The notes beneath the pieces were generated by a model. It ran no database searches, was not told the DNA's origin, and saw nothing but the letters and a program-made list of their open reading frames with translations. A program made the translations under genes and the position numbers. Below, in pieces: positions 13,947 to 48,845 of a stretch of DNA of 64,000 bases (position 1 is its first letter; the number at the start of each line of letters is the position of its first letter). Origin of the DNA: Arenicola marina (Eukaryota; Annelida; Polychaeta; Arenicolidae); assembly GCA_964019135.1 (NCBI GenBank), contig OZ025255.1, positions 22,297,708 to 22,361,707 on the forward strand. The letters are read 5' to 3'.

Positions 13947-14169
13947 ACATCGGGCTCCAGGCCGCTAGGGTCTATCTCGGCGCCTCCCATGGGGTCATCG
14001 TTGAGACCCCTGTCGTAGTCATAGACACGGACCTCGACCGGCTTGAACGGGTCCTCGATGGGCAGCGAGAACTTCTCCTCCCACTTGGGGTTCAGGTTCT
14101 TGTACACTATGCGACTCTTGTAGTGCTGTTTACCTCCAATCTTGAACTTCACATACGGGTCACTGGTCC
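13947..14169 (-). CDS. MCTP exon: core of first C2 domain
   Basis: This 223-base exon translates to a clear C2 core: GTSDPYVKFKIGGKQHYKSR, then IVYKNLNPKWEEKFSLPIED, and VEVRVYDYDRGLNDDPMGG. The SDPYVKF motif and the aspartates of VYDYDRGLNDD are the calcium-binding loop residues of type MCTP C2 domains. NLNPxWEE is the family's strand 4 signature. The acceptor is GCTATTTCAG|GGACC and the donor is GATGT|GTGAGT. The phases (1 in, 2 out) join without a break to 16374-16266 and 13607-13487. MCTPs are ER-anchored proteins with calcium-binding C2 domains; the calcium role here is inferred from retained acidic residues. The end of the exon reads DDPMGGAEIDPSGLEPD, slightly unlike the commoner DDFMGSAFLDLxxLEL. 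Confidence 0.95.
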
Positions 14170-16265: not shown

Positions 16266-16374
16266 CACAACTGTCTCTGACCACCAAGTCTTTCCCCTCC
16301 CGTAGCACCACGTCAAGAATGAAAAAGGGGTGAGACTTCAAGTTTCTTTGTCTTTGTCGAAGCACGCCAGCCTC
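16266..16374 (-). CDS. MCTP exon: start of first C2 domain
   Basis: This 109-base exon encodes 36 residues plus one base: EAGVLRQRQRNLKSHPFFIL, then DVVLREGKDLVVRDSC. The phrase 'FFILDVVLREGKDLVVRD' is the first strand and calcium-loop 1 of the MCTP first C2 domain (human MCTP2 has the similar 'LLTIHLKEGRNLVVRDRCG'). The loop-1 aspartate is residue 34 of the exon. The acceptor is excellent (TATTTCTTTTTGCAG|GAG) and is in phase 0. The donor is TGTG|GTAAGT, in phase 1. This acceptor is the point where the alternative N-terminal exons at 46.6, 43.6 and perhaps 41.4 kb would join, since all end in phase 0. The intron to the nearest of them is about 25 kb and is filled with minisatellites. Exon boundaries are seen; joining to the N-terminal modules is inferred from phase and family order. 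Confidence 0.93.
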
Positions 16375-23516: not shown

Positions 23517-24245
23517 CATGTGAACGATGCGTTCATCTGAACGATGCCGTAGCGTTCATCTGAACGATTCCATAGCGTCCATCTGAACGACGCCATAGCG
23601 TTCATCTGAACGTTACCATAGCGTTCATCTGAACAATACCATAGCGTTCATCTAAACGACAGCATAGCGTTCATCTGAACGATGCCATAGCGTTCATCTG
23701 AACGGTACCATAGCGTTCATCTGAACGATACCATAGCGTTCAGCTGAACGATACCATAGCGTTCATCTGAACAATACCATAGCGTTCATCTGAACAACAC
23801 CATAGCGTTCATCTGAACGATACCATAGCGTTCATCTGAACAATACCATAGCGTTCATCTGAACGATACCATAGCGTTCATCTGAACGATACCATAGCGT
23901 TCATCTGAACGATACTGCGTTCATCTGAACAACACCATAGCGTTCATCTGAACAATACCATAGCGTTCATCTGAACGATGCCATAGCGTTCATCTGAACG
24001 ATACCATAGCGTTCATCTGAACGATTCCATAGCGTTCATCTGAAAGATACCATAGCGTTCATCTAAACGACAGCATAGCATTCATCTGAACGATGCCATA
24101 GCGTTCATCTGAACGATACCATAGCGTTCATCTGAACAATACCATAGCGTTCATCTGAACGATTCCATAGCGTTCATCTAAACGACAGCATAGCGTTCAT
24201 CTGAACGATGCCATAGCGTTCATCTGAACGATGCCGTAACGTTAA
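23517..24245. repeat. Minisatellite, 23-bp unit, about 31 copies
   Basis: The unit is 'gttcatctgaacgataccat' plus 'agc', a near-perfect ladder. Variants change the centre (gatacc, gatgcc, caatacc, cgacagc). TTCATCTGAA is nearly self-complementary. One unit near 23905 is shortened ('gatactgcgttcatctgaac'). Intronic to MCTP. Confidence 0.95.
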
Positions 24246-24599
24246 TTTGAATAACAATAAACCCCATTCCGACATTCACAAAAGGTCACGACCTATTTGG
24301 TGATAAAGTAACTTAGATGGCTGACGTCACCGACTGCCCGTTGCTTCCGAGAAGAGTTCACAACCTGATTAGCGATAAGGCTGGTACCGCCTACACAACA
24401 CTGCAGCCGCCACCCCCTCCTCCCTGTATGGAGATACCTCCAAGCTAATCCCTTTGTTCCATTATATTTCAGGCGCCAGTATATCGACTACTACTAATTC
24501 GCTGGTTACGGAGCGGAATTAGAAACCGCGTACTCACAAATTCGCTATGGCGACGCGCTGTACGTTGTAACGACCACGTGACCCTCAATCGATGACACG

Positions 24600-27957: not shown

Positions 27958-28165
27958 CACTTGCTTGCTCACGCAGCCCACAGCGAGATATCTAATTCAC
28001 GGGCAGTATATTCGCGGCGCTTCTAGCCTACATTTCACATCATAATGGCGCCGCATATCAGATGTGACACCTATTTTTTGGACGAATGAAAATACCGGGC
28101 GCCATTCTCTGAGGAGATAGACGCGGCGACCGATGACATCACACCAGGCGTCAGAAGCAGCCAGG

Positions 28166-29150
28166 GCTAGACTCCAAGGCCCCGGCCAGACTTCAGAGCA
28201 CGGGCCAGACTCCAGAGCCCGGGCCAGACTCCAGAGCCCGGGCCATACTCCAGAGCCCGGGCCATATTCCAGAGCCCGGGCCATACTCCAGAGCCCGGGC
28301 CAGAATCCAGAGCCCGGGCCAGAATCCAGAGCCCGAGCCAGACTCCAGAGCCCGCGCCAGACTCCAGAGCCCGGGCCAGACTCCAGAGCCCGCGCCAGAC
28401 TCCAGAGCCCGGGCCAGACGCCAGAGCCCGCGCCAGACTCCAGAGCCCGCGCCAGACCCCAGAGCCCGCGCCATACTCCAGAGTCCGGGCCATACTCCAG
28501 AGTCCGGGCCATACTCCAGAGCCCGAGCCAGACCCCAGAGCCCGGGCCATACTCCAGAGCCCGCGCCATACTCCAGAGCCCGGGCCACACTCCAGAGCCC
28601 GGGCCATACTCCAGAGCCCGCGCCAGACTCCAGAGCCCGGGCCAGAATCCAGAGCCCAGGCCATACTCCAGAGCCCGAACCAGACCCCAGAGCCCGGGCC
28701 AGACTCCAGAGTCCCGGCCATACCCCAGAGTCCGGGCCATACTGCAGAGCCCGAGCCAGACCCCAGAGCCCGGGCCAGACTCCAGAGCCCGGGCCAGACT
28801 CCAGAGCCCGGGCCATACTCCAGAGCCCGGGCCATATTCCAGAGCCCGGGCCAGACTCCAGAGCCCGGGCCAGACTCCAGACCCCGGGCCATACTCCAGA
28901 GCCCGGGCCATATTCCAGAGCCCGGGCCACACTCCAGAGTCCGGGCCATACTCCAGAGTCCGGGCCATATTCCAGACCCCGGGCCAGACCCCAGAGGCCG
29001 GGCCAGACTCCAGAGCCCGGGCCAGACTCCAGAGCCCGGGCCATACTCCAGAGCCCGGGCCATATTCCAGAGCCCGGGCCAGACTCCAGAACCCGGGCCA
29101 GACTCCAGAGCCCGAGCCATACTCCAGAGCCCGGGCCCGACTCCAGAGCG
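28166..29150. repeat. Minisatellite, 19-bp unit, about 52 copies
   Basis: The unit is 'cagagcccgggccagactc', with common variants 'catactc' for 'cagactc' and 'gcgcc' for 'gggcc'. Because 19 is not a multiple of three, each frame cycles through all unit phases in 57 bases (19 codons). No phase holds a stop on either strand, so frames of 300 codons or more run through both strands. The repeating peptides are arithmetic by-products. GCCCGGGC gives each unit an 8-bp palindrome. Confidence 0.97.
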
Positions 29151-31289: not shown

Positions 31290-33985
31290 TTATGACTAAG
31301 GTCTCGAAAACCTGCTGTGTGTAGGGGGGTAGAGAATAAGGACATAGGGTTCGTCACATTACAAGTTATGACTAAAGTCCCGACAACCTGATGTGTGTCG
31401 ATGGGAAGAGAATGAGGACATAAGGTTCGTCACATTACAAGCTTTGACTGAAGTCCCGACAACCTGCTGTGTGTAGGGGGGTAGATAATAAGGACATAGG
31501 GTTCGTCACATTACAAGTTATGACTAAAGTCCCGACAACCTGATGTGTGTCGATGGGAAGAGAATAAGGTCATAGGGTTCGTCACATTACAAGCTATGAC
31601 TGAACTCCCGACAACCTGCTGTATATAGGGGGGTAGAGAATAAGGACATAGGGTTCGTCACATTACAAGCTATGAATGAAGTCCCGACAACCTGCTGTAT
31701 ATAGGGGGGTAGAGAATAAGGACATAGGGTTCGTCACATTACAAGCTATGATTGAAGTCCCGACAACCTGCTGTGTGTAGATGGGAAGAGAATAAGGACA
31801 TAGGGTTCGTCACATTACAAGCTATGAATGAAGTCCCGACAACCTGCTGTATATAGGGGGGTAGAGAATAAGGACATAGGGTTCGTCACATTACAAGCTA
31901 TGACTGAAATCCCGACAACCTGCTGTGTGTAGATGGGAAGAGAATAAGGACATAGGGTTCGTCACATTACAAGCTATGACTGAAGTCCCGACAACCTGCT
32001 GTGTGTAGGGGGGTAGAGAATAAGGACATAGGGTTCGTCACATTACAAGCTATGATTGAAGTCCCGACAACCTGCTGTGTGTAGGGGGGTAGAGAATAAG
32101 GACATAGGGTTCGTCACATTACAAGCTATGATTGAAGTCCCGACAACCTGCTGTGTGTAGGGGGGTAGAGAATAAGGACATAGGGTTCGTCACATTACAA
32201 GCTATGACTGAAGTCCCGACAACCTGCTGTATATAGGGGGTAGAGAATAAGGACATAGGGTTCGTCACATTACAAGCTATGACTGAAGTCCCGACAACCT
32301 GCTGTATATAGGGGGTAGAGAATAAGGACATAGGGTTCGTCACATTCCAAGCTATGATTGAAGTCCCGACAACCTGCTGTGTGTAGGGGGGTAGAGAATA
32401 AGGACATAGGGTTCGTCACATTACAAGCTATGATTGAAGTCCCGACAACCTGCTGTATATAGAGGGTAGAGAATAAGGACATAGGGTTCGTCACATTACA
32501 AGCTATGACTGAAGTCCCGACAACCTGCTGTGTGTAGGGGGGTAGAGAATAAGGACATAGGGTTCGTCACATTCCAAGCTATGATTGAAGTCCCGACAAC
32601 CTGCTGTGTGTAGGGGGGTAGAGAATAAGGACATAGGGTTCGTCACATTACAAGCTATGACTGAAGTCCCGACAACCTGCTGTATATAGAGGGTAGAGAA
32701 TAAGGACATAGGGTTCGTCACATTACAAGCTATGACTGAAGTCCCGACAACCTGCTGTGTGTAGGGGGGTAGAGAATAAGGACATAGGGTTCGTCACATT
32801 CCAAGCTATGATTGAAGTCCCGACAACCTGCTGTGTGTAGGGGGGTAGAGAATAAGGACATAGGGTTCGTCACATTACAAGCTATGACTGAAGTCCCGAC
32901 AACCTGCTGTATATAGGGGGTAGAGAATAAGGACATAGGGTTCGTCACATTCCAAGCTATGATTGAAGTCCCGACAACCTGCTGTGTGTAGGGGGGTAGA
33001 GAATAAGGACATAGGGTTCGTCACATTACAAGCTATGATTGAAGTCCCGACAACCTGCTGTATATAGAGGGTAGAGAATAAGGACATAGGGTTCGTCACA
33101 TTACAAGCTATGACTGAAGTCCCGACAACCTGCTGTGTGTAGATGGGAAGAGAATAAGGACATAGGGTTCGTCACATTACAAGCTATGACTGAAGTCCCG
33201 ACAACCTGCTGTATATAGGGGGTAGAGAATAAGGACATAGGGTTCGTCACATTACAAGCTATGATTGAAGTCCCGACAACCTGCTGTGTGTAGGGGGGTA
33301 GAGAATAAGGACATAGGGTTCGTCACATTACTAGCTATGACTGAAGTCCCGACAACCTGCTGTGTGTAGGAGGTAGAGAATAAGGACATAGGGTTCGTCA
33401 CATTACAAGCTATGACTGAAGTCCCGACAACCTGCTGTGTGTAGGGGGTAGAGAATAAGGACATAGGGTTCGTCACATTACAAGCTATGACTGAAGTCCC
33501 GACAACCTGCTGTATATAGGGGGTAGAGAATAAGGACATAGGGTTCGTCACATTACAAGCTATGATTGAAGTCCCGACAACCTGCTATGTGTAGGGGGGG
33601 GGGTAGAGAATAAGGACATCGGGTTCGTCACATTACTAGTCATGATTGAAGTCCCGACAACCTGCTGTGTGTAGGGGGGTAGAGAATAAGGACATAGGGT
33701 TCGTCACATTACAAGCTATGACTGAAGTCCCGACAACTTGCTGTGTGTAGGGGGTAGAGAATAAGGACATAGGGTTCGTCACATTACAAGCTATGACTGG
33801 AGTCCCGACAACCTGCTGTGTGTAGGGGGTAGAGAATAAGGACATAGGGTTCGTCACATTACTAGCTATGACTGAAGTCCCGACAACCTGCTGTGTGTAG
33901 GGGGTAGAGAATAAGGACATAGGGTTCGTCACATTACTAGCTATGACTGAAGTCCCGACAACCTGCTGTGTGTAGGGGGTAGACA
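31290..33985. repeat. Satellite-like array, 75-76-bp unit, about 35 copies
   Basis: The consensus includes 'agggttcgtcacattacaag', 'ctatgactgaagtcccgaca', 'acctgctgtgtgtagggggg' and 'tagagaataaggacat'. Three linker types alternate: 'gtgtaggggggtag', 'atatagggggtag' and 'gatgggaag'. Units of 75 bases keep frame and give 25-residue peptide repeats on the minus strand, which are by-products. Copies are about 95% alike by eye. The last unit breaks off at 'gtagacattgcaagcttt'. Confidence 0.97.
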
Positions 33986-38045: not shown

Positions 38046-38049
38046 TTGG

Positions 38050-39800
38050 GACCACGAACCGGCCGCTCGGGCTGGCCTAGCAGAGCACACTGGACAATAA
38101 CCGGCCGCTCGGGCTGGCCTAGCAGAGTACACTGGACCACGAACCGGCCGCTCGGGCTGGCCTATCAGAGCACACTGGACCACAAACCGGCCGCTCGGGC
38201 TGGCCTAGCAGAGCACACTGGACCACGCACCGGCCGCTTGGGCTGGCCTAGCAGAGCACACTGGACCACGCAACGGCCGCTCGGGCTGGCCTAGCAGAGC
38301 ACACTGGACAATAACCGGCCGCTCGGGCTGGCCTAGCAGAGCACACTGGACCACGAACCGGCCGCTCGGGCTGGCCTAGCAGAGCACACTGGACCACGAA
38401 CCGGCCGCTCGGGCTGGCCTAGCAGAGCACACTGGAACACGAACCGGCCGCTCGGGCTGGCCTAGCAGAGCACACTGGACCACGAACCGGCCGCTCGGGC
38501 TGGCCTAGCAGAGCACACTGGACCACGAACCGGCCGCTCGGGCTGGCCTAGCAGAGCACACTGGACCACGAACCGGCCGCTCAGGCTGGCCTAGCAGGGC
38601 ACACTGGACAATAACCGGCCGCTCGGGCTGGCCTAGTAGAGCACACTGGACAATAACCGGCCGCTCGGGCTGGCCTAGCAGAGCACACTGGACCACGAAA
38701 CTAGCAGAGCACAGTGGACAATAACCGGCCGCTCGGGCTGGCCTAGCAGAGCACACTGGACCACGAAACTAGCAGAGCACACTGGACAATAACCGGCCGC
38801 TCGGGCTGGCCTAGCAGAGCACACTGGACCACGAACCGGCCGCTCGGGCTGGCCTAGCAAAGCACACTGGACCACGAACCGACCGCTCGGTCTGGCCTAG
38901 CAGAGCACACTGGACCACGAACCGGCCGCTCGGGCTGGCCTAGCAGAGCACACTGGACAATAACCGGCCGCTCGGGCTGGCCTAGCAGAGCACACTGGAC
39001 AATAACCGGCCGCTCGGGCTGGCCTAGCAGAGCACACTGGACAATAACCGGCCGCTCGGGCTGGCCTAGCAGAGCACACTGGACAATAACCGGCCGCTCG
39101 GGCTGGCCTAGCAGAGCACACTTGACCACGCACCGGCCGCTTGGGCTGGCCTAGCAGAGCACACTGGACAATAAACCGGCCGCTCCGGCTGACCTAGCAG
39201 AGCACACTGGACCACGAACCGGCCGCTCGGGCTGGCCTAGCAGAGCACACTGGACAATAACCGGCCGCTCGGGCTGGCCTAGCAGAGCACACTGGACCAC
39301 GCACCGGCCGCTTGGGCTGGCCTAGCAGAGCACACTGGACCACGCACCGGCCGCTCGGGCTGGCCTAGCAGAGCACACTGGGCAATAACTGGCCGCTCGG
39401 GCTGGCCTGCAGAGCACACTGGGCAATAACTGGCCGCTCGGGCTGGCCGAGCAGAGCACACTGGACAATAACTGGCCGCTCGGGCTGGCCTGCAGAGCAC
39501 ACTAGACAGTAACTGGCCGCTCTTGCTGGCCTGCAGAGCACACTGGGCAATAACTGGCCGCTCGGGCTGGCCGAGCAGAGCACACTAGACAATAACTGGC
39601 CGCTCTTGCTGGCCTGCAGAGCACACTGGGCAATAACTGGCCGCTCGGGCCAGCCTGCAAAGAACACTGGGCAATAACTGGCCGCTCAGGCTGGCCGAGC
39701 AAAGCACACTGGACAATAACTGGCCGCTCTTGCTGGCCTGCAGAGCACACTGGGCAATAACTGGCCGCTCGGGCTGGCCGAGCAGAGCACACTGGGCAAT
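38050..39800. repeat. Minisatellite, 42/43-bp unit, about 41 copies
   Basis: The unit is 'cggccgctcgggctggccta' plus 'gcagagcacactgg' plus either 'accacgaac' (43 bp) or 'acaataac' (42 bp). The two endings are interspersed in blocks. From about 39385 units read 'tggccgctcgggctggcc(t)gcagagcac' and are more variable. Frames such as repeated 'ARPARAAGYCPVCS' are by-products of the repeat. Confidence 0.97.
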
Positions 39801-45955: not shown

Positions 45956-46047
45956 TTAAACCGCCAGATCTAGACTATCGTAGAACGGCCGTTGCGTGTT
46001 CATGCGGTGTGCATGTGCCGGACTCCTGGCTTCGGGTGATAACGGGT

Positions 46048-46638
46048 CACTCACCGAGGTATCTATGACGTCACATTCACCGGGTGATAAGGGAGCACTC
46101 ACCGAGGTATGTATGACGTCACATTCACTGGATGATAACGGAGCTATGGGTGATAAGGGAGCACTCACCGAGGTATCTATGATATCACATTCACTGGTTG
46201 ATAAGGGAGCTGTGGGTGATAACGGAGCACTCACCGAGGTATCTATGACGTCACATTCACTCGGTGATCACGGATCACTCACCGAGGTATCTATGACGTC
46301 ACATTCACTGGGTGATAAGGGAGCACTCACCGAGGTATCTATGATATCACATTCACTGGGTGACAAGGGAGCTGTGGGTGATAACGGAGCACTCACCGAG
46401 GTCTCTATGACGTCACATTCACTCGGTGATAGCGGAGCACTCACCGATGTACCTATGACGTCACATTCACTCGGTGATAACGGAGCACTCACCGATGTAC
46501 CTATGACGTCACATTCACTCGGTGATAACGGAGCACTCACCGATGTACCTATGACGTCACATTCACTCGGTGATAACGGAGCACTCACCGATGTATCTAT
46601 GACGTCACATTCACTGGGTGATAACGGAGCACTCACCG
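46048..46638 (-). repeat. Array of 12 splice-donor units (48 or 66 bp) overlapping the MCTP exon end
   Basis: On the minus strand each unit contains TCGGTGAGTG, a strong 5' splice site. Plus-strand starts of the motif are 46048, 46096, 46162, 46228, 46276, 46324, 46390, 46438, 46486, 46534, 46582 and 46630. Every spacing is 48 or 66, both multiples of three. The frame of the 47-kb exon stays open through the first eight units, giving a 16-residue repeat (SVSAPLSPSECDVIDT), until a TGA at 46270-46268. It is then open again in the same frame to 45956. Nine units also contain the CRE palindrome TGACGTCA. The TGA replaces the TTA (Leu) codon of other units. Confidence 0.93.
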
Positions 46639-47013
46639 AGCTAACTATGACGCCGATCCCGCTGTCCACTTCACTCTCCTTCTCCTCCCCGCGCGTACGC
46701 TCCAACAACTCCCTCTGGCGACGTTTCTCAGCGTCCTTGAAGAGTGAGTCAAAGTCTGAGGCTCGATCCCCGTGTGTACCGCCGTCCGAGCAGCAACCAG
46801 CGGCAGTGACGGCTTCCCCATCCTCCCCGCCCGCCTCATCCCTCTTGCTGATTGGTCCCTTTTCCTTGCTGCGCGTCCGCAGCTTGCTCGTGCGTCGCTT
46901 GAGGCTGTTCCACAGCCTCCGCCGCCGGCTGGTAGGGGGCGACTCTGTCGTGCCCGACTGGCGGATGTCCAGCGAACTCTTGGAGCGGCGTTCATCCTCG
47001 GCTGCCCTGCTGC
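46637..47013 (-). CDS. MCTP N-terminal internal exon
   Basis: The acceptor TGTATTGTCTAG|GCAG (exon from 47013, phase 1) and the donor GCTCG|GTGAGT (exon end 46637, phase 0) frame 125 codons. The translation has no methionine, so a start lies upstream. It reads SRAAEDERRSKSSLDIRQSG, then RRRRLWNSLKRRTSKLRTRS, an acidic and serine-rich middle, DSLFKDAEKRRQRELLERTR and ends DSGIGVIVSS. The basic 'LWNSLKRRTSKL' patch matches the amphipathic leader of MCTPs (human MCTP2: VWGSLKQRT). Phase 0 fits the C2 acceptor at 16374. The donor is the first of 12 tandem copies, so the true 3' end may vary, adding 16- or 22-residue repeats. Splice sites and frame are seen; assignment to MCTP rests on the leader motif, strand, phase and order. 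Confidence 0.78.
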
Positions 47014-47892: not shown

Positions 47893-47999
47893 TTTCTCGC
47901 GCCGAGCGCCACTGATGACGTCACGCCGAGAGCCACTGATGACGTCACGCCGAGAGCCACTGATGACGTCACGCCGAGAGCCACTGATGACGTCACGCC
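47893..47999. repeat. Minisatellite, 24-bp unit, 4 copies, each with a CRE palindrome
   Basis: 'ccactgatgacgtcacgccg' plus 'agag' repeats with TGACGTCA at 47916, 47940, 47964 and 47988. TGACGTCA is the CREB/ATF consensus. Sequence outside the octamer differs from the 46-kb array. It lies in the intron between the candidate first exon at 50.0 kb and the 47-kb exon. Four perfect sites at 24-bp spacing could form an enhancer, but this is inference. Confidence 0.85.
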
Positions 48000-48845
48000 A
48001 GAGAATAATACTATGTATCTGTTAGTTCCGTTAGCGGAGGCGGTGTATTTAGTTTCTATGGCATACGATTCATCTTCGGGGACATTAATTTGTCCAGATT
48101 ATGACTGATCTCCACCCCCCCTGCAGTGGCAGAATCTCAATAAGTCCGTTATGACGGGCAATATCAAGTGTCAAATCCTCACATCAGGCTGCCGTACGCT
48201 GCACTGTAATGATAAAAACCCACAGCGAACCATAATACGTATATCACATGTGTTTTTCAGCATCGGACTCTTATCGGTTATTTCTGCCGCAAGCCCTGTT
48301 CTGAGTATCCAAGACTATGGGTCCCTTATGGTGAGGGCGTCCACTTTCTCTCTCTCCCGCAGTCGGCTGTCATGTAAACTTACTCCATTACATGCTCTGA
48401 CACGGTTGTTCACCCGGCGCAGTTACACGTTTCATAATAAGATACCTCGCCCGTGGCTTTAATAAAAGGTACGTGATTCCATGTGTGTGAACTCCCAGCA
48501 GTAATTCGCGGATATCCCACCAGGTGGAGTGACTTGTCACCGCAATCCGCGGGAAACGTAAGAATGTCGCCAGGTTTCACAATTAGTGAAGTCTCAAGTG
48601 GCTAGGCGGCGTTGCTGTCGTCGCCATGGCTGTTGGTTTTATAGTTCCCCCCTATTTTCACGCCAGAAAATGGATCCGTTACAACGAAAGCGCGTCGTCT
48701 AACGGCAACGTGTTTTACCCACGACTAGCAGCCCATCGGCTACAACACCCACTCCAGGGAATGTGGGCGCTAAACTAAGGGCGGCGTAAGTAATATGGCA
48801 CCATCGGTACCACCACGAAGCGTCACCATCGGCACCTCCAACGGC
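48000..48845. other. Intronic stretch, nothing recognised
   Basis: No gene or element was recognised. Confidence 0.5.

Follow-up and report, generated by a model that had tools for sequence, protein, structure and literature searches.

A tandem array of 12 splice donors, headed by the donor of an N-terminal coding exon of an MCTP gene, is in our reading a mirage minisatellite, in which the first donor is used and the rest are passengers. We give this reading a probability of roughly three in four. The array lies in a 64,000-base stretch of the genome of the annelid Arenicola marina, hereafter the window. Taken alone, it would be an ordinary mirage; the genome-wide pattern matters more.

The array and the exon that it abuts

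The sequence TCG/GTGAGT, in which the slash marks the exon–intron boundary, occurs 12 times without mismatch on the minus strand, from the donor of the MCTP exon at 46636 down to 46054. The first intronic bases of donors 1–12 are 46636, 46588, 46540, 46492, 46444, 46396, 46330, 46282, 46234, 46168, 46102, and 46054 (minus strand). All 12 occurrences of TCGGTGAGT in the window fall inside the array, against 0.37 expected, and none of 100 shuffles reached 12. By TRF and a listing of its units, the minisatellite spans 46029..46652 (minus strand), and the GTGAGT of its first donor is read at 46631..46636 on the same strand. Neighboring donors are 48 bases apart in eight cases and 66 in three; the 18 bases inserted in the longer units are similar to a stretch of the repeat unit. 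The 48-base unit consists of about 16 terminal exon bases and about 32 intron bases. These 16 exon-end bases recur with GTGAGT at 48-base spacing, 13 of 16 being identical, so that the repeat spans the exon–intron boundary.

In the reading frame of the exon, all 12 donors stand in phase 0, and units 1–7 lack a stop, which leaves donors 1–8 reachable. Translation places an in-frame TGA in unit 8, at 46268..46270 (minus strand), and the frame that continues past the last unit ends at a TAA at 45956..45958 (minus strand; translation and sequence). The initial annotation had described an exon donor at the head of 12 tandem copies, a spacing of always 48 or 66 bases, preservation of phase at any choice of donor, and eight stop-free donors before the TGA at 46270–46268; all of this was borne out.

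No second copy of the array was found in the 867-Mb assembly, whether the query was the 966-base stretch or a 26-base core with up to three mismatches. Minisatellites in general are abundant: those with a period of at least 12 and at least three copies make up 19218 of 154000 bases (∼12%) around the MCTP gene, and long ones in the window lie at 31291–33983 (unit 76), 38049–39795 (unit 43), 28159–29149 (unit 19), and 23529–24251 (unit 23). The same assembly holds a mitochondrial contig, C762, of 15942 bases (invertebrate code), with the one-strand order nad4L-nad4, an rRNA-sized gap, and nad1-nad3-nad2-cox1-cox2-atp8-cox3, all but cox1 named by eye, which we take to be the usual annelid order.

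The gene itself has the make-up of an MCTP, namely C2 domains followed by a C-terminal transmembrane region, with its exons in order on one strand. Using human MCTP1 and MCTP2 sequences as probes, tblastn found colinear minus-strand exons from 16344 (E=0.019, a short exon) and from 14170 (E=1e-19), and it placed the second and third C2 domains and the C-terminal part ∼6 to 22.5 kb below the start of the window, also on the minus strand. The exon at 16266..16374 (minus strand; sequence and tblastn) has a phase-0 acceptor, TTTTTGCAG/GAG, and holds the start of the first C2 domain, most of which is encoded at 13947..14169 (minus strand; sequence, tblastn, and Pfam C2). Joined, these two exons match Pfam C2 with E=3.3e-22. 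A search for PRT_C (PF08372) gave no match in this genome and likewise none in 14 control genomes. The first MCTP coding exon was not found.

The exon beside the array, at 46637..47013 (minus strand), has an open frame between an acceptor TGTCTAG/GC and its phase-0 donor. It was absent from the tblastn table obtained with the human MCTP1 and MCTP2 probes and matched no Pfam family. Its assignment to MCTP, though indirect, is nevertheless credible from sequence, because the phase-0 donor fits the phase-0 acceptor at 16374 and because its motif RLWNSLKRRTSKL resembles what we take to be the N-terminal VWGSLKQRTRPL of human MCTP2. The intron of 30 kb (46.6 to 16.4 kb) is reckoned to the next recognized exon, and further exons may lie between. 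Across the gene, candidate donors could be placed at six of 12 approximate exon ends examined. One of the six is the N-terminal exon array, one is followed 117 bases on by a single 16/17 match, and four have no similar sequence within 3 kb downstream.

Frame and constraint in the MCTP units

The initial annotation had proposed that the array is a splice-site ratchet yielding graded linkers. Under such a model, several of donors 1–8 are used, and the stretch linking the N-terminus to the first C2 domain gains 0–7 Ser/Pro-rich repeats. The donors are indeed identical, in phase 0 throughout, and free of stops before unit 8. That units 1–7 are open and in frame, in an apparently disordered linker where extra donors could be tolerated, counts against the mirage reading, as does the invariance of the donor 9-mer TCG/GTGAGT in all copies. 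A precedent also exists in human IFI6, where, in the available part of the report, an array of such a kind can supply more than one used donor (PMC4526556).

Comparison of the 11 complete units lends this model no significant support. Their 12 variable columns represent 12 distinct changes, of which five are synonymous, six replace a residue, and one creates a stop; the synonymous share of 5/12 compares with a neutral expectation of 26% (p=0.18). All nine donor columns are invariant among the 11 units (p=0.056), although their codons could vary silently, and the longest invariant run, of 10 columns, is attained in 54% of random layouts. Thus, neither coding constraint nor donor conservation is significant in these units. 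The spacing is no stronger as evidence, since it rests on two independent lengths, 48 bases and the 18-base insertion, and two such lengths would both be multiples of three in about one case in nine. The array also belongs to a class without a frame rule, in which the unit length is divisible by three in only 5 of 13 arrays, and frame preservation was accordingly rejected as a sign of selection. Finally, at three ALDH1L arrays, described below, it is the first donor that fits. The ratchet proposal was thus not upheld. Because several donors would be tolerable in the MCTP linker, we keep the graded-linker idea, as an unlikely one.

The open frame also bears on a model in which the repeats are exonic. 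Here, a single long exon would span the array and end either at a late donor or at the TAA at 45958, the TGA of unit 8 being a recent null mutation, with a short isoform without C2 domains. The frame is open from 47011 to 45959 apart from that single TGA, and synonymous changes, at 5/12, exceed the neutral share, but not significantly (p=0.18). However, the TGA itself speaks against this model, chance alone often leaves a 48-base unit open, and inspection by eye revealed no good donor after the array. As a coding repeat the array was rejected, given the same synonymous share, and we hold the exonic model to be very improbable.

It is also conceivable that the array acts through a different signal in the unit, for example as an enhancer array of TGACGTCA, presumably a CREB/ATF-type motif, or as a U1 snRNP platform. 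Nine of the 11 complete units carry TGACGTCA, a palindrome; a second array at a distance of 1.3 kb contains it four times, and the window holds 18 copies against 0.9 expected. That second array, at 47900..48004 (strand unassigned; TRF and the TGACGTCA list), is diverged and has a 24-base unit. It shares both TGACGTCA and a CxCCGAG stretch with the nine-copy array at 46029–46652, which suggests that the two may be related. However, five further TGACGTCA sites in the window lie outside both arrays, and the motif occurs at most twice in 12 loci with other exon-abutting donor arrays. A role of this kind thus seems a long shot.

Donor arrays at ALDH1L and across the genome

The mirage reading draws in part on ALDH1L, the sole gene in which protein conservation allowed donor choice to be judged. 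Donor-copying arrays occupy three of its introns (L018, L031, and L038; contig C1, 604.5–644.6 kb), with units of 39, 28, and 87 bases. The array of 39-base units, which extends over about 6.5 kb, follows an exon ending in YFAGWCDKIQ. The 28-base units come after the second exon downstream of that one, and the 87-base units after a later exon, ∼30 kb further along. The three loci apparently belong to one gene, whose exons were read at the arrays rather than between them. When exons are joined at the first donor of the 39- and 28-base arrays, the product matches ALDH1L1 without gaps over 140 residues (E=2e-75), and the product of joining at the first donor of the 87-base array aligns with cytosolic 10-formyltetrahydrofolate dehydrogenase over 61 residues, likewise without gaps. 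Since a later donor would add residues or shift the frame, the first donor makes the known protein at all three arrays. Protein conservation thus points to the first donor as the one that fits in each case.

Donor arrays are not confined to these two genes. We searched the whole assembly for three donor words spaced 20–50 bases apart, with the same word reversed as the control. Matches numbered 56435 versus 30909 for GGTGAGT, 30039 versus 13253 for GGTAAGT, 3697 (729 on the forward strand and 2968 on the reverse) versus 447 for CAGGTAAGT, and 2860 versus 928 for CAGGTGAGT; these totals count array members and are dominated by long arrays, which weakens them as evidence. By number of arrays among the matches listed, GGTAAGT had six over the first 1.09 Mb of contig 1 and TGAATGG, its reverse, seven over 10.94 Mb (p=5.5e-4). 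Array densities were taken from the matches listed for GGTAAGT, TGAATGG, and YTTYNCAGG; the 100 listed for GGTGAGT were all on the plus strand and lacked two minus-strand arrays that appear among those for CAGGTGAGT. Single CAGGTAAGT sites are themselves 2.4-fold commoner than their reverse (14053 versus 5841), so part of the array excess reflects real donors. Even so, 26% of the perfect CAG/GTAAGT sites (3697 of 14053) are the first of three in a tandem array, compared with 7.7% for the reversed word (447 of 5841).

Acceptor words showed no such excess in the assembly. Runs of three gave 695 matches for TTTGCAGG versus 1231 for its reverse, an imperfect control because the reverse contains CpG, and 3533 versus 4495 for YTTYNCAGG, a word with 14 arrays listed over the initial 69 Mb of contig 1. 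Whether amplification in this genome concerns 5′ splice sites as a class, and not acceptors, we regard as evenly poised. One array, at C1:52043767-52045865, has a unit with both acceptor- and donor-like signals, TTTTACAG/GTACGT.

Sixteen distinct donor-word arrays occur among the matches listed for GGTGAGT, GGTAAGT, CAGGTAAGT, and CAGGTGAGT, all on contig 1, and all 16 flanks were read. Ten of the 16 begin at the apparent own donor of an exon, a figure without a matched control rate, since control arrays also lie near exons and exon contact is therefore not donor-specific. Three have no recognizable exon (L020, L024, and L028), one has a likely acceptor beside it, but on the opposite strand (L035), and the starts of two others lie outside the sequence read (L034 and L036). 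Three of the 10 exons score above the curated Pfam cut-off: the ALDH1L exon (L018; aldehyde dehydrogenase, in a scan of this exon spliced to the two that follow), a histidine ammonia-lyase exon (L022; aromatic amino acid lyase), and a TPR exon (L030). Two reach E<1e-4 below the cut-off, a lustrin-type exon (L019) and a transmembrane exon that weakly resembles an ErbB segment (L023). The other five are supported by an acceptor and an open frame; they comprise two exons with a hydrophobic stretch (L021 and L029), an acidic exon (L032), one that we take to resemble HDHD5, with no Pfam or PDB match (L025), and one with a presumably HDAC6-like zinc finger (L033; zf-UBP E=0.037).

Together with the two further ALDH1L arrays and that of MCTP, these 10 make up 13 exon-abutting arrays that were measured. 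Their units, MCTP first, are 48, 39, 28, 87, 34, 27, 46, 27, 25, 44, 46, 53, and 50 bases long, the values 28 and 27 having been fixed by reading where the script returned their doubles, 56 and 54. The five lengths divisible by three correspond to the chance level, and in L023 the donor spacings are mixed (27, 52, 21, and 21). The unit includes 10–40 exon-end bases in 12 of the 13 arrays and just three in L019.

For the control, 10 of the 14 edges of the seven TGAATGG arrays among the matches listed were read by eye. One of these arrays stops at an acceptor belonging to a later exon of ALDH1L, with the AG uncopied (L038), and another lies ∼50 bases from a likely acceptor (L045); a copied donor was seen at none of the 10 edges. 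At L035 and L038:1-104, the array reaches an acceptor without copying its AG, unlike the arrays at donors. Thus, arrays near exons are common in this genome generally, and copying of the splice signal is seen at donors only.

On the mirage reading, a tandem duplication would have been seeded across the exon–intron junction of the MCTP exon and then expanded, copying the donor with each unit. Splicing of the pre-mRNA would take the exon-proximal first donor at 46636, as the three ALDH1L arrays suggest by analogy, and the other eleven would be intronic passengers, used at a low level at most. The array could persist because donors added downstream of a working one leave the exon intact, and its multiple-of-three spacing would be coincidence. 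We infer that MCTP behaves like ALDH1L and that a "first donor wins" filter may be the cause. A second suggestion of the initial annotation, that the array reached fixation because each of its units functions as a donor, comes near to this, but the array is better described as tolerated, with its first donor intact.

Arrays of this kind may be relevant for several reasons. First, they set near-identical donors in competition at defined distances, so that donor choice, tolerance, and errors could be read directly from long-read RNA. Second, the donor–acceptor asymmetry is testable in other minisatellite-rich genomes. If true, it would amount to a natural experiment, in which extra downstream donors are tolerated and extra upstream acceptors are purged, and new isoforms or intron movement would have a large supply of ready-made donors to draw on. 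Finally, gene predictors may misread such units as protein repeats.

Relation to known systems

Among the papers listed in a literature search, none concerned donor arrays in annelids or at MCTP. Intronic minisatellites are described in earthworm metallothionein, and the available part of that report does not describe them as copying splice sites (PMC12783039). Intron gain through tandem duplication of splice-like sites is described, in the accessible portions of the respective papers, for cases in Drosophila (PMC2891723) and for human repeats (PMC2812944). Splice signals are likewise duplicated in the arrays described here, but existing introns are enlarged and no new intron position is shown.

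Closer to the MCTP array is the minisatellite of human IFI6 (6-16), whose multiple splice donors were reportedly described by Turri et al. in 1995. Its unit is reportedly 12 bases long and starts near the end of exon 2. There, too, repeat units with splice donors lie near an exon end. As far as the available text of a later source extends, several of the repeat donors are used in splicing (PMC4526556), whereas the MCTP array is known here from sequence alone.

The closest likeness is to the mirage minisatellites of amphioxus, which the consulted parts of two papers place in Adh3, the globins BflGb6 and BflGb9, and troponin C, with similar repeats in PGBD5, and which are reported there not to disturb splicing (PMC3087553, PMC3902484). 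They, too, are tandem units across an exon–intron boundary that copy a splice signal. The MCTP array is a boundary-spanning repeat of this type, and its units of 48 and 66 bases fall within the 10–160 bp given for published mirages and in the same range as the 10–72 bp of Adh3, as far as the available text goes (PMC3087553). The two systems also differ. The globin BflGb6, by the same partial account, copies the acceptor side, whereas donor words and not acceptor words are in excess here; and the amphioxus mirages belong to another phylum, whereas the arrays described here stand at many exons of an annelid.
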